From: Trueperaceae bacterium
GTDB taxonomy: Bacteria; Deinococcota; Deinococci; Deinococcales; Trueperaceae
Direction: 5' to 3'
Length of the DNA stretch: 64,000 nucleotides
Assembly: GCA_002707365.1 (NCBI GenBank)
Contig: PAMQ01000015.1
Span: forward strand, 81,024 to 145,023
Positions 19,048-28,872 of the stretch are shown in pieces. A model generated the notes under the pieces. It had not been told where the DNA came from, ran no database searches, and was given only the letters and a program-made list of their open reading frames with translations. How positions within the stretch are numbered: the stretch's first letter is position 1; every line of letters starts with the position of its first letter. Both the position numbers and the translations under genes were made by a program.

Positions 19048-19056
19048 TGCTATAAT
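19048..19056 (+). promoter_or_regulatory. extended -10 promoter of the sphingolipid-like operon
   Basis: TGCTATAAT is a perfect extended -10 element, with a weak TTACTC -35 at 19029-19034 (16-bp spacer). The start near 19063 leaves a leader of about 34 nt containing GGAGGGG (19087-19093) ahead of TTG 19097. Confidence 0.65.
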
Positions 19057-19096
19057 CTCTGCCAATATACCTATTCTCGCGACATTGGAGGGGCAG

Positions 19097-20347
19097 TTGT
19101 CGGACGCGACCAACATCAAAACACGGGATGCCTTGGAAGCTCAATTCCGTCACGACCTAGATAATCACGAAGACGTTTTCCGAAAAGCTTTCGACTTCAC
19201 GCGAGCTGAGGAATTAGAGGCCCTGGGGTTGCACCCTTATTTCAAACCTATCTCCTCGCAAAATGGCGGACTCGTAACCATCGATGGCCATGAGATGGTG
19301 ATAACCGGATCGAACGACTACTTAGGCCTAACTCAAGACACTCGCCTCAAAGAGGCTGCCCGCGAAGTGCTAAATGCCTTTGGAACTAGTTGTACGGGAT
19401 CACGATTCCTGACTGGCACATTAAGCCTACACGAAATCCTTGAAGAGAAACTTGCAGGTTTTCTGGAGAAGGAATCTGCCCTTACTTTTAGCGCTGGATA
19501 TTTAGGCTGCTTATCAGTATTGAGCGCTCTTGCTGGCCGGCGTGACATCATGTACTTTGACCGCGAAAATCATGCTTCTCTATACGATGGGGCGAGACTA
19601 TCTTTCGCAACTTTACGAAAATTCGACCATAGCGACCTAGACCATCTAGAAAGCTTGCTCAAAAAGGACATTGCCAAGCCAGGTGGTCGACTAATTGTTA
19701 CCGACGGAGTGTTCTCGATGATGGGACACATCGCTAATTTACCGGGGATAATTGAAATTGCCCGGCGCTACGGCGCACGTGTAATTGTAGACGATGCTCA
19801 TGCCATCGGAGTTCTCGGTAACAAGGGGCGTGGTACAGCTGAGCATTTTGGCCTGGAGGAAGAGGTTGACCTCATACTAGGTACGTTTTCAAAAAGCCTT
19901 GGAAGCGTAGGGGGCTTTATGGCAGGCGAGAAAAAAGTTATTAGCTTCGTTAAACACCATTCTCGGCCTTTCATATTCACTGCGGCTCTCCCTGCAATGC
20001 AAATGGCTGCAGCCTTAAAGGCCTTAGAAATAATGTCATCTGAACCCGAACACCGCAAGATCCTGTGGACTAACGTCCATTTCTTGCAAGACGGATTGTC
20101 CCAACTGGGTTTTGATACTTTAGGAACTGAAACCCCGATAGTGCCCGTCCTTATTGGAGACGATGAAATAGCGTTCAAGGTTTGGCGGGGCTTGTGGGAA
20201 GAAGGCATCTTCACCACCCCAGCGGTTTCACCCGCTGTTGACAATGCAATCATACGAACCAGCGTTAACGCGAACCACACTCAAGATCAACTAGATAGGC
20301 TACTTAATGCCTTTGAAGTAGTAGGGCGTAAGTACGGGGTTATTTGA
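19097..20347 (+). CDS. spt: Serine palmitoyltransferase-like alpha-oxoamine synthase
   Basis: A PLP enzyme predicted to condense serine with a fatty acyl thioester to 3-ketosphinganine, the first step of sphingolipid synthesis. From TTG 19097 (GGAGGGG just upstream) it has 416 aa. His159 (ENHAS), Asp232 and His235 (VDDAHAIG) and the PLP lysine Lys266 in GTFSKSLGSVGGF fall almost exactly where bacterial SPT has them (Sphingomonas: 159, 231, 234, 265). The FSKS motif and LGLHPYF-x-PIS start favour SPT over KBL, BioF or ALAS, which have LGKA. The upstream ATG at 19043 lies before the predicted transcription start and is rejected. It overlaps the next gene by 4 nt. An acyltransferase and a reductase gene downstream support the role. 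Confidence 0.85.
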   Translation: MSDATNIKTRDALEAQFRHDLDNHEDVFRKAFDFTRAEELEALGLHPYFKPISSQNGGLVTIDGHEMVITGSNDYLGLTQDTRLKEAAREVLNAFGTSCTGSRFLTGTLSLHEILEEKLAGFLEKESALTFSAGYLGCLSVLSALAGRRDIMYFDRENHASLYDGARLSFATLRKFDHSDLDHLESLLKKDIAKPGGRLIVTDGVFSMMGHIANLPGIIEIARRYGARVIVDDAHAIGVLGNKGRGTAEHFGLEEEVDLILGTFSKSLGSVGGFMAGEKKVISFVKHHSRPFIFTAALPAMQMAAALKALEIMSSEPEHRKILWTNVHFLQDGLSQLGFDTLGTETPIVPVLIGDDEIAFKVWRGLWEEGIFTTPAVSPAVDNAIIRTSVNANHTQDQLDRLLNAFEVVGRKYGVI

Positions 20348-21468
20348 GCTTCGAGGCCACTGTGACAAAAGTTCAGCCGGTAACTACGCGGAGGGATCTT
20401 AACCGCTTTGTTATGTTTCCCTACGAGTTCTACGCTTCTGACTCAGCCTGGGTCCCCCCATTAAGGATGACTGCATTCGACACTTTCAGGCCGAACAAGA
20501 ATCCGTTTTACCAATACGGTTCGATGGAGCTTTATCTGGCTGTCCGAAACAACAAGGTCGTAGGGCGTATTGCTGCTATCGAAAACCCCCGCCACAACGA
20601 TACGCATGGGGAAAATATGGCTTTCTTTGGCTTTTTTGAAGCACAAGATGAAACTGCTGCACAAGCATTATTGGAAATAACCGAGCATACCGCTCGTCAA
20701 AAGGGACGACTCGCAATCCGCGGCCCCGTTAATCCAACGATGGACGAAGGAGCGGGATTCCAAATCAATGCGTTCGACACTACCCCGTACCTTATGACGC
20801 CACATAGCCCTGAAGCCTACCTAGGTTATATGGAAATGTTTGGTTACAAAAAGACCAAAGACCTTTACGCATGGCGTTACATCAGTCTCGGCGGCATGGG
20901 AGAACGATTATCACGCCTTGCCGAAAGAGTTAAAAAGCGCTATGCAGTGACTGTACGACCTGCAGACCTAAAGAATTACAAAAGCGAGGTGGCCTTGCTT
21001 CGTCAACTCTATAACAAAGCCTGGGAAAAAAACTGGGGTTTTGTCAAAATGACTGAGGCTGAACTAGACCAACTGGCAAACGATTTAAAGTTGATTCTTG
21101 ACCCCAACATTGCCCTGTTCGCTGAATATGAAGGCGAGGTGGTCTGTTTAGCAATCGCATTGCCTGACATCAACCTCGTATTAAAACGCATGGGAGGACG
21201 ATTGTTGCCATTCGGGTTTATGCACCTACTCAATCGGAAGAAGATCATTAACCGAGCGCGTCTCCCTATCCTGGGTGTGCTGCCAGAATACCGTCAGCGA
21301 GGATTCGAATTGGTGATGATAGACGAGATAGCTAAGCGGGGGCAAGCAACCTACCATGAAGCTGAGTGCTCATGGATACTCGAAGATAACGATCCGATGA
21401 ATAAGGGGATAGCTGCCACCGGAGCCTCTCTCTATAAAACATACCGGATATTTCAAAAAGCCCTTTAG
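20344..21468 (+). CDS. BcerS/YghO-like GNAT N-acyltransferase (candidate ceramide synthase)
   Basis: A 374-aa acyl-CoA N-acyltransferase-fold protein of the YghO-type family (PTHR41368), which includes the Caulobacter ceramide synthase bCerS. Shared blocks are FPYEFYASDSAWVPPL near 24-39, NPFYQYGSMELYLAVR, VGRIAAIENPRHND, NMAFFGFFE and RGPVNPTMDEGAGFQ. C-terminal LGVLPEYRQRGFELVMID resembles the GNAT acyl-CoA loop. It would acylate the amine made by the preceding synthase. Its TTG start overlaps the spt stop (ttga); GTG 20362 is an alternative. Placement between spt and an NAD-dependent reductase matches known bacterial ceramide loci. The acyl donor is unknown. Confidence 0.8.
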   Translation: MSFEATVTKVQPVTTRRDLNRFVMFPYEFYASDSAWVPPLRMTAFDTFRPNKNPFYQYGSMELYLAVRNNKVVGRIAAIENPRHNDTHGENMAFFGFFEAQDETAAQALLEITEHTARQKGRLAIRGPVNPTMDEGAGFQINAFDTTPYLMTPHSPEAYLGYMEMFGYKKTKDLYAWRYISLGGMGERLSRLAERVKKRYAVTVRPADLKNYKSEVALLRQLYNKAWEKNWGFVKMTEAELDQLANDLKLILDPNIALFAEYEGEVVCLAIALPDINLVLKRMGGRLLPFGFMHLLNRKKIINRARLPILGVLPEYRQRGFELVMIDEIAKRGQATYHEAECSWILEDNDPMNKGIAATGASLYKTYRIFQKAL

Positions 21469-21469
21469 C

Positions 21470-22192
21470 GTGCAAATCTTTAGGGATCTAGCACAAGATC
21501 TGAGTCAATTATTCCCTAGAAATTCTTCGAAACTTTGGTACACGTTATTAGCAGCAATCTTGCTTCAAATCGCCTTCTGGTATCTAGCTACACCAGGACC
21601 GAACCTAATTAGTTTTGAACCACGCAACTTTAGGTCAGCGATAACTAGTGTGGCTTGGAGCATACTTTTACTATGGTTTGTGCCCAAAATACTGACTGGA
21701 CCCCTAGGACTAACCCGCAAGCGTCTCGGCTTGGCCTTAGGCGACTATCAAGCAGGATCAATTATAGTCTTTTTTGGCGGGGGTTTAGCCCTTGTACTTA
21801 TGAGACTCGCTTCAGCTGACCCCGCCATACAAGCTACTTACCCCTGGCCAGGAAGCTCCGCTGGTAGCTCCCTGCAAGCGCTCGTCATTTGGGCTGGATT
21901 CTATATCCTCTACTACGCTTCTTTCGAATTCTTTTATCGTGGGTTCTTACTTAGGACTCTCGAGAGAGCTCTCGGACTTATACCGGCAATATGGCTCCAA
22001 GCTTTTGCTGCTACCGTCGTTCATTTTGGAAAACCGTTTGCTGAAACAATTGCGGCATTTCCGGCAAGCCTACTGTTTGCTGTGATAGCAGTCAGAACAA
22101 AATCCTTATTCTACCCAGTAGCCTTGCACTTCATTGTTGGAATCAGCATTGATATTTTCTCTCTCGCTCGTAAGGGCCAACTTTTTCCATGA
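21470..22192 (+). CDS. CPBP-family (CAAX protease/bacteriocin-processing type) membrane protein
   Basis: A 240-aa polytopic protein with about six to seven hydrophobic segments and a C-terminal CPBP/Abi domain (PF02517). The motif normally EExxxR reads FEFFYRG here, so the first glutamate is missing. The second motif AATVVHFGKPF retains the histidine, and LHFIVG near the end gives another. Loss of the first Glu makes proteolysis doubtful; a non-proteolytic lipid or membrane role is possible. GTG 21470 is one base after the preceding stop, and the end overlaps the next ATG by 4 nt, so it belongs firmly to the sphingolipid-like operon. Confidence 0.8.
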   Translation: MQIFRDLAQDLSQLFPRNSSKLWYTLLAAILLQIAFWYLATPGPNLISFEPRNFRSAITSVAWSILLLWFVPKILTGPLGLTRKRLGLALGDYQAGSIIVFFGGGLALVLMRLASADPAIQATYPWPGSSAGSSLQALVIWAGFYILYYASFEFFYRGFLLRTLERALGLIPAIWLQAFAATVVHFGKPFAETIAAFPASLLFAVIAVRTKSLFYPVALHFIVGISIDIFSLARKGQLFP

Positions 22193-23166
22193 AGATCCTA
22201 GTTTCAGGGGCCCACGGTTTTATTGGAAGCCATATCGTCCAACACCTTCTCAAAGCTGGCTCTGAGGTTATAGCCCTTGTATCTCCTTGGGGTAGTACGA
22301 GAAACCTCGAAGCAGACTCATGCCACCCTGCTCTAACTATAGTTTACGGTGATATCACTGATCCCATATCACTCCGTAACATACCGAAACACACGGTTGT
22401 TATACATGCTGCAGCTCGAGTTGCGGATTGGGGAAGCAGTAATCTCACCGAAAAGGTTAACGTTAATGGGACCTGGAACCTTTTGCGCCGCGCTGAAGAA
22501 TTAGGGGTCACTCGATTTGTACTCATCAGTAGCGTTGCGGTACACAGATACACTGGCTTTAAGAATGCTGATCCTAGATCAGTTCCAAGGGATCGCCACT
22601 CTCTCCCTTATGCGCGCTCTAAAATCCAAGCTGAAGATATCGTACTGACATCGCACTCGCTCGAAGGGGTAGTTATTCGTCCTGGCTTATGGCCATTTGG
22701 CCCAAGGGATCCTCAGTTTTCTCGGATCCTTTCCGCCTTACAGAAAGGACGACTCCCTGTAGTCAATTCAGGAAAAGCAGTGATTAATACGGCTTACGTA
22801 GAAAATCTCGTACACGGAATAGAACTAGCGACATATCGCCCTGAAGCAGTTGGAAAAACTTATGTAATAGCAGATGAGGGAGCGCCAAGCTGGGCGCAAC
22901 TCTTTAAGAATATTGCTGATCAAGTTGGCTGCCCAACCCCGCAAGTTTCGATCCCCGGATGGCTAGCAAGTCCAGCTGGCATTGTAATGGAAAAGTTGTT
23001 TGCACTTGTTAGTCCATCAACCGAGCCCCCACTTACTGGCTATCGAGGACAACTCATGCTACGGAACGTGCACTTTGATATAACCTGCACAAGGAGGGAA
23101 CTAGGTTATCATCCAAAGATTCCCTGGCAAGAGGGAATAAGGAGAACCTTGGAGGCAGTCATTTAA
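22189..23166 (+). CDS. NAD(P)-dependent epimerase/reductase, CerR-like candidate
   Basis: An extended short-chain dehydrogenase of 325 aa. The nucleotide-binding GAHGFIGSH is at 7-15, DIT at the adenine site, HAAARV near 73-78, Ser114/115, and the catalytic pair Tyr141 and Lys145 is in YARSK. The 3-beta-HSD/dihydroflavonol-reductase flavour and the position two genes after the acyltransferase suggest reduction of the 3-keto group of an acylated ketosphinganine, as CerR does in Caulobacter. Sequence alone cannot exclude a sugar-nucleotide epimerase. ATG 22189 overlaps the preceding stop (atga), so translation is coupled. It is followed by a 112-bp gap with the next promoter. Confidence 0.8.
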   Translation: MKILVSGAHGFIGSHIVQHLLKAGSEVIALVSPWGSTRNLEADSCHPALTIVYGDITDPISLRNIPKHTVVIHAAARVADWGSSNLTEKVNVNGTWNLLRRAEELGVTRFVLISSVAVHRYTGFKNADPRSVPRDRHSLPYARSKIQAEDIVLTSHSLEGVVIRPGLWPFGPRDPQFSRILSALQKGRLPVVNSGKAVINTAYVENLVHGIELATYRPEAVGKTYVIADEGAPSWAQLFKNIADQVGCPTPQVSIPGWLASPAGIVMEKLFALVSPSTEPPLTGYRGQLMLRNVHFDITCTRRELGYHPKIPWQEGIRRTLEAVI

Positions 23167-23263
23167 GAACTATTACTCCGAATGAACCCTCTATGGATAT
23201 TTAGTGTTTATATTTCGACGGACAACGCGATTGAATGGGGATAGCTTAATCACCTAAAAACTT

Positions 23264-23272
23264 TGATAATTT
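23264..23272 (+). promoter_or_regulatory. extended -10 box of the glycosyltransferase gene
   Basis: TGATAATTT (TGn plus TANNNT) ends 6 nt before ATG 23279. This is close to the 7-nt leaderless spacing seen elsewhere in the window. No Shine-Dalgarno is visible. Confidence 0.5.
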
Positions 23273-23278
23273 CACCCT

Positions 23279-24460
23279 ATGAACCGACCCAAGCCTCGCA
23301 TCCTTTTCGCTACAATCTCTGCTGGCGGATCACACGTCAGTTCCGCAACAGCTATGGCCGAAGCCGTCAGCCGTGACTACCCTCAAGTTGATGTGCAAGT
23401 AGACGAGTTAATGATCGATTATGGCTTTCAAAAACAGGATAGACGACACAAAAATGCTTGGAAATACGCCCTCATGAATCCTTGGTCAATTGTATGGGGT
23501 CAGCTCCTTGTAGATCGCTTTCCTTCTGCGACAGTTTCTATTCAAAGGAGACTTCTTCGTTCTTTCGCAGAGGTAGCCTCCCAACGTCTCGCCACTGATC
23601 AGCCAGACTTGGTGGTGGCTAACCACGCCTGGCTTACCGTGGCCCTTACTCTTGCACAAACAACTTTTGGACTTAACCTTCCCGTCCTAACCTTCGAAAC
23701 ATCAACCATAAATGCCAATGGCCTTTGGGCTGATAAAAATGCAGAAAGATTCATAGTGGGTAGTGCAATATCTAAACAAAGACTCCATCACTTAGGAATT
23801 AGAGAAGACCGTATCGATGTGGTTGGGTACCCTGTAAGAAGAGCTTTCCTTGAAGCTCCTGGAAAAACCGAAGCGCGAGACGCTTTAGGCTTGGACAACC
23901 GATTTACCATCTTGATAGCATTAGGTGGAGAGGGTGTTGGAGGAAAATCTGAACGTTTAGTCGAAATCCTAATGAACATACGTCCTAACCTTCAGATTGT
24001 AGTGGTCGCAGGACGCAACAAAGCTCTATGCGAAGTTCTGGAAAAAAAGTATCTTGGGAAACCGGACTTACGGGTTACAGGATTCACCGACAATATGGCT
24101 ACCTACGTCGCTGCAAGCGATATCACCATCGCCAAAACAGGACCAGCGACAGTATATGAAATCCTTGCTGTCGGTCGTCCGATTATTGCCACATCGAGGT
24201 TTGGCGGGGTTGAAAACGTATTAATAGATTTTCTCGAACAAAAAGGACTAGGTCACTATGCTCCCGACGCGAATACTTTAATCTCAACAATCAATAATTA
24301 TCAAACCTCACTAGAGACACGTAAGGCCTTTGCCTCTGGTGCTTCAGCCCTAGATTTCGGTGGGATGAGCTCACGTATAGCCCAATACATTTATCACTAT
24401 GCAGTCAACCGTAGAGTTGACATAAGTGTAGTCGGGCAGGGCCTTCCATTGGTACGGTAA
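23279..24460 (+). CDS. MGDG-synthase/UgtP-type lipid glycosyltransferase
   Basis: A 393-aa two-domain glycosyltransferase (GT28, GT-B fold). The N-terminus ILFATISAGGSHVSSATAMAEAV is the MGDG-synthase domain (PF06925), which binds the lipid acceptor. The C-terminal domain has LIALGGEGVGGKSERLV, VVVAGRN, VTGFTDNM and the donor-site KTGPATVYEILAVGRPII. Relatives add sugars to diacylglycerol on the inner membrane face. Here, next to a candidate ceramide operon, the acceptor could be ceramide, which is inference. A flippase-like gene follows after 3 nt, so synthesis and membrane translocation may be coupled. Sugar specificity cannot be read. Confidence 0.87.
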   Translation: MNRPKPRILFATISAGGSHVSSATAMAEAVSRDYPQVDVQVDELMIDYGFQKQDRRHKNAWKYALMNPWSIVWGQLLVDRFPSATVSIQRRLLRSFAEVASQRLATDQPDLVVANHAWLTVALTLAQTTFGLNLPVLTFETSTINANGLWADKNAERFIVGSAISKQRLHHLGIREDRIDVVGYPVRRAFLEAPGKTEARDALGLDNRFTILIALGGEGVGGKSERLVEILMNIRPNLQIVVVAGRNKALCEVLEKKYLGKPDLRVTGFTDNMATYVAASDITIAKTGPATVYEILAVGRPIIATSRFGGVENVLIDFLEQKGLGHYAPDANTLISTINNYQTSLETRKAFASGASALDFGGMSSRIAQYIYHYAVNRRVDISVVGQGLPLVR

Positions 24461-24463
24461 CTC

Positions 24464-25471
24464 GTGCTACGTCTATGGCAAGCAATATCCATATCCCTGG
24501 TTCTGGGGATTCTTAGTCTATGGATAGTACTACCCAATCTTTCCCTCACGGAAATTCGAAACTCAGTAGCTGATTTCGACATCCGCCTTATACCCGGAAT
24601 CATTAGCTTAATAATTTCTTGGTGGATTACTGCTGGCCTTAGAACCATCGCACTAGCTTCGAGAGTTGGTAATCGCCTCAACTTATGGCAGGCAGTACAA
24701 ACACACGTTTTTGGTGTCTTCAGCTCCACAATCACGCCAGCTGGCGGAGGAAATTCATTCGGAATCGCTTTCCTCTTAAATCGTTTTGGCCTAAGCCCCC
24801 AAAACGCTACAGCCGTAACAGTCATGACCCTTGTTGGTGACATGACATTTTTTGCCTGGGCAGTTCCTGCGGCTTTCGTACTTTTAACAAAAAGGGGATT
24901 AAGCCTCCCAATAGACAACCTACCCCTCTTTATTCTAGGTCTATCCGCACTATCTCTCACCGTAAGCTATATCCTGGTATTTCGACTTCCGCTTACAACC
25001 CGGCTCGTAGCCCGATTAATTAGTTTTCCTTTATTTAGAAAATTACAACCACGAAGCAATGTTTTTCTCACGCAATTAGGATTGGCTAGCGAACGATTTT
25101 CGACTGTCTCCTGGACTTGGCACGTAGGGTTTCACGTTCTCTCAGCTTTCACAAGATTGCTGTACTTTTCGATATTTATCCTAATCCTCATCGCTCTAGG
25201 CCTAAACATTCCCCATCTATCAATTTATGCGTTACAGGTGGTAATTCACAATTTTGCTTTTGTTGTACCTAGCCCGGGAGCTAGTGGTTATCAAGAAATA
25301 GCTATGACTTATGCCCTAAAAGGGCAAGTACCCTCAGGACTGCTGAGTGCCACAATACTGGTTTGGCGCTTATGCAACCACTATCTTTACTTTCTCATTG
25401 GACCACTATTAGGAGGCCTTGCTCTCCTAACTAAGCGATCCATTAAAACAACTGACCCTACTTCTACCTAA
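24464..25471 (+). CDS. Flippase-like membrane protein (LPG-synthase TM domain, UPF0104)
   Basis: A 335-aa integral membrane protein with about eight hydrophobic helices, of the family sharing the MprF/AglD transmembrane domain (PF03706). Conserved segments are TPAGGGNSFGIAFLLNRFG near 89-107 and the late PSPGASGYQEIAMTYAL near 267-283. There is no soluble catalytic domain, so lipid movement or accessory glycosylation is more likely than aminoacyl transfer. GTG 24464 starts 3 nt after the glycosyltransferase stop, suggesting that it handles that enzyme's product. Confidence 0.82.
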   Translation: MLRLWQAISISLVLGILSLWIVLPNLSLTEIRNSVADFDIRLIPGIISLIISWWITAGLRTIALASRVGNRLNLWQAVQTHVFGVFSSTITPAGGGNSFGIAFLLNRFGLSPQNATAVTVMTLVGDMTFFAWAVPAAFVLLTKRGLSLPIDNLPLFILGLSALSLTVSYILVFRLPLTTRLVARLISFPLFRKLQPRSNVFLTQLGLASERFSTVSWTWHVGFHVLSAFTRLLYFSIFILILIALGLNIPHLSIYALQVVIHNFAFVVPSPGASGYQEIAMTYALKGQVPSGLLSATILVWRLCNHYLYFLIGPLLGGLALLTKRSIKTTDPTST

Positions 25472-25521: not shown

Positions 25522-28086
25522 ATGAGGGTTTTGCTTCGCCTTGCGGTACGCAACCTTGCTCGCCACCCTTGGCGAAGTTCAGCCACGATCCTCGGGGTGG
25601 GACTAGGCATTGCTGCGGTTCTAGCCACGTTGTCAGTTGGCGCTAATATAAAGGCTAACCTTGGTAGCGCACTCGAGGCTGCTGCTGGGAAAACAGACTT
25701 GCTCGTTGTACCCGGTGCGTCAGGTCGCGCTTTCTTCGAAAGCGATGAGATCATAGCGGCCATAGAACTTGATCCTGAAATATCAGCTATATACCCGGTT
25801 CTGAACTATAGAGCTGAACCTATTCGAGAAGTAAAAAATTTCAAGGCCCCAATAATTCCTGGTATAGACTCAGGTTTTCAATTGTCAGGACGGATAACTG
25901 AATCAGGCGAAGATCTACCCGTCACCCTCGCTAGCGGTAAACTCCCAACACAAGGAACAAACGGCATTGCTCTTTCAAATGGATTTGCAAAATCTCGAGA
26001 TTACGATATTGGTGAAACCATAAATTTCGCTACACAATTCGGCGAAATTCCCTTCTACATCACTGGGCTACTTGATGAAGGCCATGGACTGGCCTCAAAT
26101 AATGCGGGACGCGTGGGTTTAGTGCACATCGACGATCTTCAAAAAGCCGTACGACTCTCTGGACGAGCCTCCTTACTGGAACTCCACCTAACTTCTGGAG
26201 CTAACGTCGAAAAAAGTCAGGATCGCCTATTAAAACTATTAGGGCCAACCTCTACAGTTGTCCTCACAGCCTCTATAGGCAATTTTGCAACTGGCCTTAG
26301 CGATACTCTTCAATCAGGACTGACCATACTCGCGGCAACATTAATGGCCCTTGGAGCATTCATGGCTTACAACACGTTCACTGCCGCAGTCATCGAACGT
26401 ACAAGGGAATATGCACTCCTCCGCACCGTTTGTCTGCTCCGCCGCGAGATTGGTTTAATAGCTATATTTGAAGCTGTCATTGTAGGTATTTTAGGAGTTT
26501 TATCAGGAATAATCTTGGGCGTTATTTTGTCCTACACCATAACTAGATTTAACGCCTGGGCTCTAGGGTTTGAATATCGGACACTAGTCTTTCCCTTAGA
26601 TGCTGTCCTCCTAGCCAGCATTGTCGGATTAGCCTCATCACTAATAGCTGGATGGCTCCCAGCGAAAGTTGCTTCACGCACATCCCCGCTTGCGGCTAAT
26701 CGAGCGGCATACCTCACTCACGAACCTACCACCCCCTCACTTTTTCTAGGTTTGATTCTCTTGTGCTTAGGGATTGGGATTGCGGTAACTCCCTGGAACG
26801 GAATATGGGCAATCGCAGCAAGTGCATTCGCTATGGCCCTACTTTTCGCAGGCTTGACTTTACTTGCACCTATTTTTCTTAATCCCTTAATTAACGGTTT
26901 AACTCCCTATATTGCCGTCTTTATCGGCATGCCAGGTCGCCTCGGTGCGAATTTTGCAAAACGCAATGCAGCTAGAAACAGTGTAGCGATAAGTTCGGTT
27001 GTCCTAGGAATGGGGCTCACCATCGGCGTAGGCTCTATGGTTACCGGAATCCACCGCTCAATAGAGACGTGGGTAGATACTACAGTAGTAGGCGATTTAT
27101 TTGTGACCACACCAGTAAACTTTCCTGACAACTTCGTATTAGAGGCCACCCAACAAGTACCTGAGGTTAACGTAATATCTGGCGTCGGTATCCGTGCAAT
27201 CCGATACTTACCGGAAGGATTATCTAACGGACGAACTGTTGCGCTTGTACTAATTGACCCGGAACGCTTTAATCCTGATGGGGGATTCGGCTCATTCCAA
27301 CACATTCGTGATCAAGGTAATGCCCTAACAAGTTACGAAGCTCTTAAGCAAGGAGGATCTGTGCTAGCTGCCAATACGATTCGTGAGAAGTTCAGAGTTG
27401 AACTCGGATCAAACGTAAAGCTACGAACCTCAGAGGGGTTCCGTGACTTCCCCGTATCAGGCATAGTAGTGGATTTTACTGGCGGTGGAGAAACATTCGT
27501 AGGCAGCATAAACGACGTCGATTTATTTGGCGGGGGCTCACCCGACCTCTTTGTCATGACCGTCAAAGAGGGTTTCTCTCATGAACAGGTCCGGGAAGAC
27601 CTCCTCAAATCTTTCCCACACCTGTTCCTTGACATCACCCTAAACCAAAGCTACCGCGAACAAATACAATCTCTTGCTAGAAGGTCATTCCTAACAACTA
27701 ATGCCCTTCTCTTCTTGACAATCTTCGTGGCTGCCTTAGGCGTCTCTAACACCCTTGGGATGAATCTCTCCCACCGTCAGCACGAAATAGCAGTATTACG
27801 GACATTGGGGCTTACTAGAAAAGGGGTATCCTCCATGATTGCGACAGAAGGGATAATAATAAATTTAGTAGGGGCTTTAATCGGAATAGTCGTCGGTATG
27901 TTACTTGCTCAAACCATAACAACCGGAGCTTCAGAATTAACCGGATTTTCTATACGAGCTATTTTCCCCTGGCGCTTAATAATTGTCGCATTTCTTTCCT
28001 CACCACTTATAGGCTTACTGGCAGCATATTTTCCAGCGAAACGAGCTAGTAAACTTCCTCCTAACCTCGCATTAAATTCGGAGTAA
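25522..28086 (+). CDS. FtsX/MacB-type ABC transporter permease (two FtsX domains)
   Basis: An 854-aa membrane protein with two FtsX-type units, each a helix group around large extracytoplasmic domains. The first hydrophobic helix is near residues 17-37, and helix clusters lie near 260-390, 400-470 and 720-850. The repeated ALRTVCLLRREIGLIA and VLRTLGLTRKGVSSMI segments are the cytoplasmic coupling loops of this family. Such permeases work with LolD-like ATPases to extract lipids or lipoproteins, or as mechanotransmission exporters. The partner ATPase follows 3 nt downstream. Position directly after the glycolipid genes makes lipid export an attractive inference. Confidence 0.85.
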   Translation: MRVLLRLAVRNLARHPWRSSATILGVGLGIAAVLATLSVGANIKANLGSALEAAAGKTDLLVVPGASGRAFFESDEIIAAIELDPEISAIYPVLNYRAEPIREVKNFKAPIIPGIDSGFQLSGRITESGEDLPVTLASGKLPTQGTNGIALSNGFAKSRDYDIGETINFATQFGEIPFYITGLLDEGHGLASNNAGRVGLVHIDDLQKAVRLSGRASLLELHLTSGANVEKSQDRLLKLLGPTSTVVLTASIGNFATGLSDTLQSGLTILAATLMALGAFMAYNTFTAAVIERTREYALLRTVCLLRREIGLIAIFEAVIVGILGVLSGIILGVILSYTITRFNAWALGFEYRTLVFPLDAVLLASIVGLASSLIAGWLPAKVASRTSPLAANRAAYLTHEPTTPSLFLGLILLCLGIGIAVTPWNGIWAIAASAFAMALLFAGLTLLAPIFLNPLINGLTPYIAVFIGMPGRLGANFAKRNAARNSVAISSVVLGMGLTIGVGSMVTGIHRSIETWVDTTVVGDLFVTTPVNFPDNFVLEATQQVPEVNVISGVGIRAIRYLPEGLSNGRTVALVLIDPERFNPDGGFGSFQHIRDQGNALTSYEALKQGGSVLAANTIREKFRVELGSNVKLRTSEGFRDFPVSGIVVDFTGGGETFVGSINDVDLFGGGSPDLFVMTVKEGFSHEQVREDLLKSFPHLFLDITLNQSYREQIQSLARRSFLTTNALLFLTIFVAALGVSNTLGMNLSHRQHEIAVLRTLGLTRKGVSSMIATEGIIINLVGALIGIVVGMLLAQTITTGASELTGFSIRAIFPWRLIIVAFLSSPLIGLLAAYFPAKRASKLPPNLALNSE

Positions 28087-28089
28087 CTT

Positions 28090-28872
28090 ATGCATAAACA
28101 AGTCTCGAGAAAATCCCAGCCCACTGCCCAAAAGAAATGCCAAAGTCCCGCAATCACTGGTGAGAATTTAGTTAAGCATTACCTTCTAGGCGGGGAAGTT
28201 GTTAAAGCACTTGAAGGGGTCAGCTTGACAATAAACAGCGGAGAATTCGTAGCAGTTATGGGTCCAAGCGGAAGCGGTAAGAGTACCCTGCTCCATCTGC
28301 TAGGACTTCTGGAAATACCGGATACGGGCGAAGTACTCATTGAGAATCAGCGCACTTCCCTACTGAATGACGATGATTTGACCATGATGCGACGAAATCG
28401 ACTCGGCTTTGTATTTCAGAACTTTGAGTTGATCCCTAATCTGTCGGCACGTGAAAATATCCTCCTTCCTGCAGAAATAAGCGGCAACCAACATGAGGCT
28501 GCAGATCGCCTTAAACAACTTTCCATCAATCTTGCAATCCATGATCGCTTACAACACAAACCTCGTGAACTTTCCGGAGGCCAACGACAGCGAGTTGCTT
28601 TAGCTCGAGCCTTAATTAATAGTCCCGCAGTTATATTGGCCGACGAACCCACGGGAAATCTTGACAGCCAAACAGGCACAGATGTTCTACAAATACTCCG
28701 CGAAGGGGTAAATCTCCATGATTGGACTGTCCTAATTGTCACCCATGACCCAAAAGCCGCTCTCTTTGCTGATCGTATAGTTTTCTTGCGCGATGGCAAC
28801 CTCTCAGGTGAGGTCAACACCCTCGATAGTAACGTTAGAGAGGTGATCGAGACCTTTATAGGGAAGTCATAG
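28090..28872 (+). CDS. LolD/MacB-type ABC transporter ATPase
   Basis: A 260-aa ATPase partner of the preceding FtsX-type permease. Walker A is GPSGSGKST near residues 58-66, followed by the Q-loop VFQNFELIPNL, signature LSGGQRQRVALARAL, Walker B VILADEPTGNLD and the switch histidine in LIVTHDP. A basic unconserved stretch of about 25 residues precedes the ABC domain, so translation could begin later, although no better start is evident. Separated from the permease by 3 nt. No membrane-fusion protein is encoded nearby, unlike classical MacAB. Confidence 0.9.
   Translation: MHKQVSRKSQPTAQKKCQSPAITGENLVKHYLLGGEVVKALEGVSLTINSGEFVAVMGPSGSGKSTLLHLLGLLEIPDTGEVLIENQRTSLLNDDDLTMMRRNRLGFVFQNFELIPNLSARENILLPAEISGNQHEAADRLKQLSINLAIHDRLQHKPRELSGGQRQRVALARALINSPAVILADEPTGNLDSQTGTDVLQILREGVNLHDWTVLIVTHDPKAALFADRIVFLRDGNLSGEVNTLDSNVREVIETFIGKS

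Follow-up and report, generated by a model that had tools for sequence, protein, structure and literature searches.

Candidate ceramide biosynthesis genes in Trueperaceae with a CPBP membrane protein and an OleD-like reductase in the position of CerR

RESULTS

Gene content of the locus

We analyzed a 64,000-nucleotide stretch of DNA (referred to as the window) from a Trueperaceae bacterium (assembly GCA_002707365.1, contig PAMQ01000015.1, positions 81,024 to 145,023), in which an earlier note based on the sequence alone had proposed an operon that makes and glycosylates a ceramide. The host genome (2.08 Mb, 97% complete), described in that note as Deinococcota-like, indeed belongs to the same GTDB family as Truepera radiovictrix, i.e., the Trueperaceae. 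All six open reading frames (ORFs) of the note were confirmed, and all are on the plus strand:

19097..20347, + strand: Spt, serine palmitoyltransferase by family (alpha-oxoamine synthase [AOS]); TTG start behind GGAGGGG, ORF open from 19043
20344..21468, + strand: bCerS/YghO-family acyltransferase, tandem GNAT, based on YghO homology, predicted fold, and Spt adjacency in many phyla; likelier start GTG 20362
21470..22192, + strand: CPBP/Rce1-like multi-pass membrane protein (PF02517, 43 bits; motifs xExxxR, HxGKPxxE, and HxxxGxxxD; distribution)
22189..23166, + strand: extended short-chain dehydrogenase/reductase (SDR) of an OleD-like clade, predicted 3-oxo-ceramide (or 3-ketosphinganine) reductase in the CerR position, based on motifs, trees, and an approximately unbiased (AU) test
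23279..24460, + strand: lipid glycosyltransferase (GT) similar to GT28 and monogalactosyldiacylglycerol synthases (Glyco_tran_28_C and UgtP-like NCBIfam matches, below cutoff)
24464..25471, + strand: flippase-like LPG_synthase_TM protein (PF03706, 98 bits; TIGR00374 above cutoff)

The first four genes had been described as translationally coupled. The 1-nt gap between bCerS and CPBP (position 21469) and the 4-nt overlap between CPBP and SDR (ATGA at 22189) are as described, while the 4-nt overlap between Spt and the acyltransferase gene (TTGA at 20344) hinges on the choice of the TTG start. Most acyltransferase homologues have N termini that start at the residue of GTG 20362, which is preceded by GAGG; with this start, the overlap is replaced by a short gap after Spt. 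The promoter proposed upstream of the operon was not supported: a lone TATAAT is present at 19050 to 19055, but a scan for −35/−10 consensus sequences found nothing at this position, and the number of promoter-like sites across the region did not exceed chance (17 found versus 13.6 ± 3.4 expected).

The first two genes encode members of the Spt and bCerS families

The FSKS motif for binding of pyridoxal 5′-phosphate (PLP) is present in the synthase, with K284 as the PLP lysine (GTFSKS), and K284, N91, H177, R405, and A314 are invariant in the Spt alignment. The best PDB match is the Sphingobacterium SPT (3a2b, 380 bits), ahead of Thermus AOS (294 bits) and Escherichia coli Kbl (249 bits). Among NCBIfam models, SerpalmtaseCFB scored highest (440.6 bits) relative to BioF (365 bits), Kbl (359 bits), and ALAS (237 bits), the last of which was compared by profile score only and was not part of the tree comparison. 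In a tree of 67 sequences, the window protein grouped with 17 Trueperaceae proteins, then with Rubrobacteraceae (support 100/96), and then with Acidobacteriota (100/100). The enclosing clade (99/97) includes both proven SPTs (3a2b and 2jg2), with Thermus AOS and the E. coli proteins Kbl and BioF outside. Based on this tree, we rejected Kbl and BioF as identities of the synthase.

SulA, the cysteate acyltransferase of sulfonolipid synthesis, belongs to the same AOS fold family and differs from Spt in having a Lys 30 residues past the PLP lysine (SulA Lys281; PMC9304779). The window protein has Ala314 at this diagnostic site, as is typical of Spt, and this residue is invariant in 18 of 18 aligned sequences, and on the basis of Ala314, we rejected an identity as SulA or a sulfonolipid synthase. 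Phylogeny and diagnostic residue together bear out the earlier assignment as an SPT-like AOS; by family, the protein encoded at 19097 is a serine palmitoyltransferase, with a predicted activity on serine and a long-chain acyl substrate.

Across 111 Deinococcota genomes, the Spt profile gave scores of >750 bits in 22 Trueperaceae genomes, 614 to 636 bits in 4 genomes of another family, and ≤360 bits in the rest. Many relatives have a separate, lower-scoring AOS (228 to 341 bits) and have, therefore, split the two AOS roles. In the window genome, Spt is the sole AOS, and this genome therefore has neither BioF nor Kbl, making biotin auxotrophy or another route to biotin likely.

The protein encoded at 20344 (ACYLTRANSFERASE) had no matching Pfam or NCBIfam model. 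Nevertheless, it aligned over its full length with YghO of E. coli (31% identity, E = 2e-61) and P. veronii (33%, E = 3e-67), the two proteins used in place of Caulobacter bCerS for testing family membership, and end-to-end with a homologue from Rubrobacter radiotolerans (54%). On the P. veronii plasmid, yghO lies beside genes for an SPT, a small acyl carrier protein (ACP)-like protein, an SDR, and an AMP-ligase-like protein, i.e., a set resembling Spt-ACP-CerR-AasR. A profile scan of GTDB genomes identified at least 558 relatives, and in most of the best 80 of these loci, which span many phyla, Spt adjoins the bCerS homologue. (Two misframed sequences in the bCerS tree, from loci L048 and L054, were given no weight.) The AlphaFold model is confident (pLDDT 92), and its best PDB matches are tandem-GNAT structures. 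These results uphold the description of this protein as a BcerS/YghO-like acyltransferase, and it is a full-length homologue of the bCerS/YghO family by sequence.

Homologues of bCerS also occur elsewhere in the phylum. In another family of the order, each of four genomes (G005 to G008, loci L061 to L064) has a bCerS homologue with Spt (614 to 636 bits) on other contigs, and two of these (G007 and G008) additionally carry a CerR-like gene (288 bits), also on separate contigs. A second Deinococcota family thus has a set of ceramide genes that are not linked. In Trueperaceae genus g11, two loci (L065 and L066) have a bCerS homologue near a flippase-like gene, together with a GT gene in L066; no Spt match better than E = 1e-60 was found in these genomes, and the proteins possibly make another N-acyl lipid.

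The SDR lies outside the CerR group

The SDR sits in the operon position of CerR and has an N-terminal GxxGxxG motif and a YxxxK motif (YARSK). The earlier note had designated it a CerR-like reductase, and this assignment was not supported. The CerR group, which comprises SDRs adjoining Spt in other phyla as well as those from three loci of Trueperaceae genus g4, from Rubrobacter, and from P. veronii, was supported by a Shimodaira-Hasegawa-like approximate likelihood ratio test (SH-aLRT) value of 99 in one SDR tree and by 90/61 in a later tree. The window SDR, along with its orthologues from Trueperaceae, is outside this group and falls in a group of 18 sequences (99/95) together with OleD-like reductases and the SDRs of two further loci (L198 and L230). 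Forcing the window-type SDRs to group with CerR cost 25.8 log units (AU test, p = 0.017). In agreement with the trees, the window SDR scored 180 bits on a CerR profile, compared to 276 to 445 bits for true CerR proteins overall and 386 to 434 bits in the g4 genomes. Searching the window-type genomes with this profile, we found no canonical CerR; the best match scored 158 to 200 bits and was usually the operon SDR itself. Labeling any SDR beside Spt as CerR is, therefore, unsafe.

OleD, a 2-alkyl-3-oxoalkanoate reductase, represents the nearest named SDR family; however, the window SDR lacks the OleABC context and scored 145 bits on the OleD model (NF042422), for which the cutoff is 580 bits. 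OleD-family reductases act on 2-alkyl-3-ketoacids, in which the 3-keto group is beside a substituted carbon, similar to the substrate proposed here.

CerR and the CPBP-SDR pair exchange in one operon slot

The order Spt-bCerS-CPBP-SDR is conserved in 15 Trueperaceae genomes, including the window genome and T. radiovictrix (in 1 of the 15, Spt is cut off by a contig end), and GT is the next gene in most of them. Because this order is maintained and the adjacency of Spt and bCerS recurs in many phyla, the operon is not a chance arrangement. In the same slot, Trueperaceae genus g4, genome G104, Rubrobacter, and other phyla have CerR and not CPBP-SDR. In G104, the otherwise same operon has a CerR, split over two contigs, with GT and FtsX next in order. 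CerR and CPBP-SDR are mutually exclusive in these Trueperaceae operons: CPBP accompanies the window-type SDR in every such operon and is absent where CerR is present. Strong matches to a CPBP profile were found only in Trueperaceae with this operon, and weaker or unlinked matches were found in genomes G074 and G098; in g4, G084, and G104, the profile search identified no CPBP. Mapping on the Spt tree indicated at least two exchanges between CerR and CPBP-SDR, and three by parsimony (a direction-neutral count). This interchange in a single slot is our main argument that CPBP-SDR performs the CerR reaction, and CPBP-SDR appears to have taken over the CerR role in most of the family. In the literature searched, we found no description of CerR being swapped for such a module.

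CPBP-SDR pairs without an adjacent Spt are present in G127 (L198), G129 (L235, in reversed order), G149 (L236), and G074 (L230); at another site in the G127 genome, the CerR profile gave a match of 276 bits. The pairs in G129 (L235, 3468 to 6397) and G149 (L236, 4880 to 6585) are outside the Trueperaceae and away from Spt, and the pair in G129 is followed by a glycosyltransferase gene.

The CPBP protein lacks conserved protease residues

Active CPBP proteases require the motifs EExxxR and HxxxN, which in MrtX correspond to E146, E147, H223, and N227, plus H188 (PMC11980579). The window CPBP belongs to the same fold family as MrtX and MmRce1 and retains the second Glu and the Arg of EExxxR as well as both His residues; it differs in having F152 in place of the first catalytic Glu and G224 in place of the oxyanion Asn. 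In all 20 correctly framed homologues (the misframed sequence of L239 was ignored), the first Glu is replaced by F, Y, or W, or rarely V, and the Asn is replaced by G, M, A, or V. These 20 proteins retain both His residues together with the Arg and the second Glu, and they also share an invariant K-P-x-x-E motif and an Asp. Because the catalytic Glu and the oxyanion Asn are replaced across homologues, we read the window-type CPBP as a non-proteolytic branch. A structure predicted from the single sequence had a pLDDT of 53 and was discarded. For a scaffold that arose from the CPBP family, there is a precedent in APH-1 of gamma-secretase. The earlier note had recognized a CPBP membrane protein but left it as an unexplained part of the operon; the identity stands, and the protein can now be read as one half of a CPBP-SDR module in the place of CerR.

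Glycosyltransferase and export genes are linked to the core operon

Downstream of the flippase-like gene, two further genes belong to the neighborhood:

25522..28086, + strand: FtsX/MacB/LolCE-type permease, syntenic with the operon; putative role in lipid export
28090..28872, + strand: LolD/MacB-type ABC ATPase, part of the conserved neighborhood

In T. radiovictrix (L043) and in two other loci (L041 and L051), there is a 4-nt overlap between the SDR gene and GT, and in L051, the FtsX-type permease gene overlaps GT. A Rubrobacteraceae locus (L074) has a GT homologue (41% identity) after CerR, followed in turn by a weak flippase homologue. These gene links support, but do not prove, that GT acts on ceramide, which is plausible. 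Thus, of the proposal that the operon makes and glycosylates a ceramide, the Spt and bCerS families are supported, glycosylation is plausible, and the identification of CerR is not upheld. The claim of a complete ceramide pathway, therefore, depends on CPBP-SDR doing the work of CerR, which we infer.

DISCUSSION

Based on family membership and gene order, the conserved gene set very probably makes a ceramide-type membrane lipid. We consider it probable that this occurs by a ceramide pathway in which 3-keto reduction has been taken over by the CPBP-SDR module and which continues into the linked glycosylation and export genes. In the proposed pathway, Spt would condense an acyl thioester, probably iso or anteiso by analogy with the fatty acids of T. 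radiovictrix, with serine or alanine to give a 3-keto long-chain base (3-ketosphinganine), and bCerS would N-acylate this base to 3-oxo-ceramide. In place of CerR, the SDR would then reduce the 3-keto group, with CPBP probably serving as the partner that binds it to the membrane. GT would add a sugar to the product, which would be moved outward by the flippase-like protein together with the Lol/Mac-type ABC complex. A more specific idea is that bacteria have a second system for 3-oxo-ceramide reduction, not orthologous to CerR and consisting of CPBP and the OleD-like SDR. In this system, a protease-dead CPBP would present the lipid or anchor the SDR as a membrane partner, and exchange with CerR would have taken place repeatedly in a single family. 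For this idea, we see about equal chances of being right or wrong.

Several observations weigh against this interpretation. Neither Spt nor the SDR reaches an NCBIfam equivalog cutoff. For Spt, the score was 440.6 bits versus the 640 bits of SerpalmtaseCFB, a model named for the CFB (Bacteroidota) group on which a close Rubrobacter protein scores 443.8 bits. The clade of all CerR proteins had a support of only 90/61, the AU p value of 0.017 is moderate, and the group used in that test was defined after an earlier tree had been viewed. Only three genomes from other phyla with a CPBP homologue pair it with an SDR, while four other genomes have the CPBP homologue without a neighboring SDR. The GT and flippase families are promiscuous with respect to substrate. 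Finally, G084 has Spt-bCerS without CerR or CPBP-SDR, and a reductase at this spot is therefore not obligatory. In this complete 4.3-Mb genome, the order is Spt-bCerS-flippase-FtsX-ABC (L049), and profile searches detected neither CerR nor CPBP-SDR; the lipids of this organism may retain the 3-keto group, or a different reductase may act on them.

Alternatively, the SDR could be a diverged CerR ortholog and CPBP an unrelated passenger or a protease. The intact Rossmann and YxxxK motifs, the CerR position, and the 180 bits on the CerR profile are consistent with this scenario; however, the well-supported grouping with OleD-like SDRs, the rejection of the CerR constraint, the presence of CPBP with this operon SDR and its absence with CerR, and the recurrence of the same pair elsewhere make it unlikely. 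Slightly less likely still, the operon product could be an amide lipid other than ceramide, i.e., a sphingolipid of the 3-keto or 1-deoxy type or an amino lipid with a relationship to the long-chain diols reported in Truepera. Such a product would fit with the ability of Spt enzymes to use alanine (PMC11334938), with the compounds reported from T. radiovictrix whose chain lengths would agree with iso-C18:0 and iso-C15:0 1,2-diols (PMC3072082), and with the lack of any linked reductase in G084. By contrast, the active site is of the Spt type, a reductase-like SDR is retained in nearly all loci, and there is no direct evidence for another substrate. That the synthase is a housekeeping BioF or Kbl in a cluster not devoted to sphingolipids is highly improbable, since its status as the sole AOS in the genome and its BioF and Kbl scores are outweighed by the phylogeny, the higher scores of Spt models, the bCerS gene that is always adjacent, and the split AOS roles in many relatives.

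Returning to the pathway with CPBP-SDR as the reductase module, it would extend the ceramide pathway, at the gene level, to a Deinococcota family with a cultured type strain, making the prediction testable; the polar lipids on record for T. radiovictrix are an uncharacterized mixture of glycolipids and phospholipids. Spt-bCerS-CerR clusters were reported from nine phyla and then, in a Black Sea survey, from 40 phyla (PMC11334938). We found no open text that places this cluster in Deinococcota, in line with the remark in the earlier note that no sphingolipid pathway is established in this phylum; the supplements of that survey were outside our search and may already tabulate the phylum. A search for literature on sphingolipids in Truepera or Rubrobacter returned nothing relevant.

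The closest Spt and bCerS proteins outside Deinococcota are encoded by the Spt-bCerS-CerR loci of R. radiotolerans plasmid 1 and Rubrobacter taiwanensis. Spt is 67 to 68% identical to the proteins of R. taiwanensis and a Rubrobacteraceae metagenome-assembled genome, and bCerS is 50 to 54% identical to Rubrobacter homologues. These loci differ from the window in having a canonical CerR and no CPBP. In R. radiotolerans RSPS-4 (L153, plasmid 1, 14230 to 19822), CerR is followed by a lipoteichoic acid (LTA)-synthase-like gene. Because the closest relatives of this locus include Trueperaceae, its kinship suggests horizontal transfer between two radiation-resistant lineages.

In the ceramide pathway of Caulobacter crescentus (PMC11087976), as in the window, the enzymes include members of the Spt and bCerS families and an SDR reductase for the third step. 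The window differs in that it has no linked AcpR or AasR, has an OleD-like SDR and CPBP for CerR, and shows linkage of the core to GT, flippase, and ABC genes. For Caulobacter, no flippase or transporter for sphingolipids is known (PMC11087976), and the linked flippase-like and ABC genes are candidates for such a function. Similarly, Caulobacter CerR was reported to be periplasmic with an unknown source of reductant (PMC11087976), and a natural substitute for CerR, as proposed here, bears on that question.

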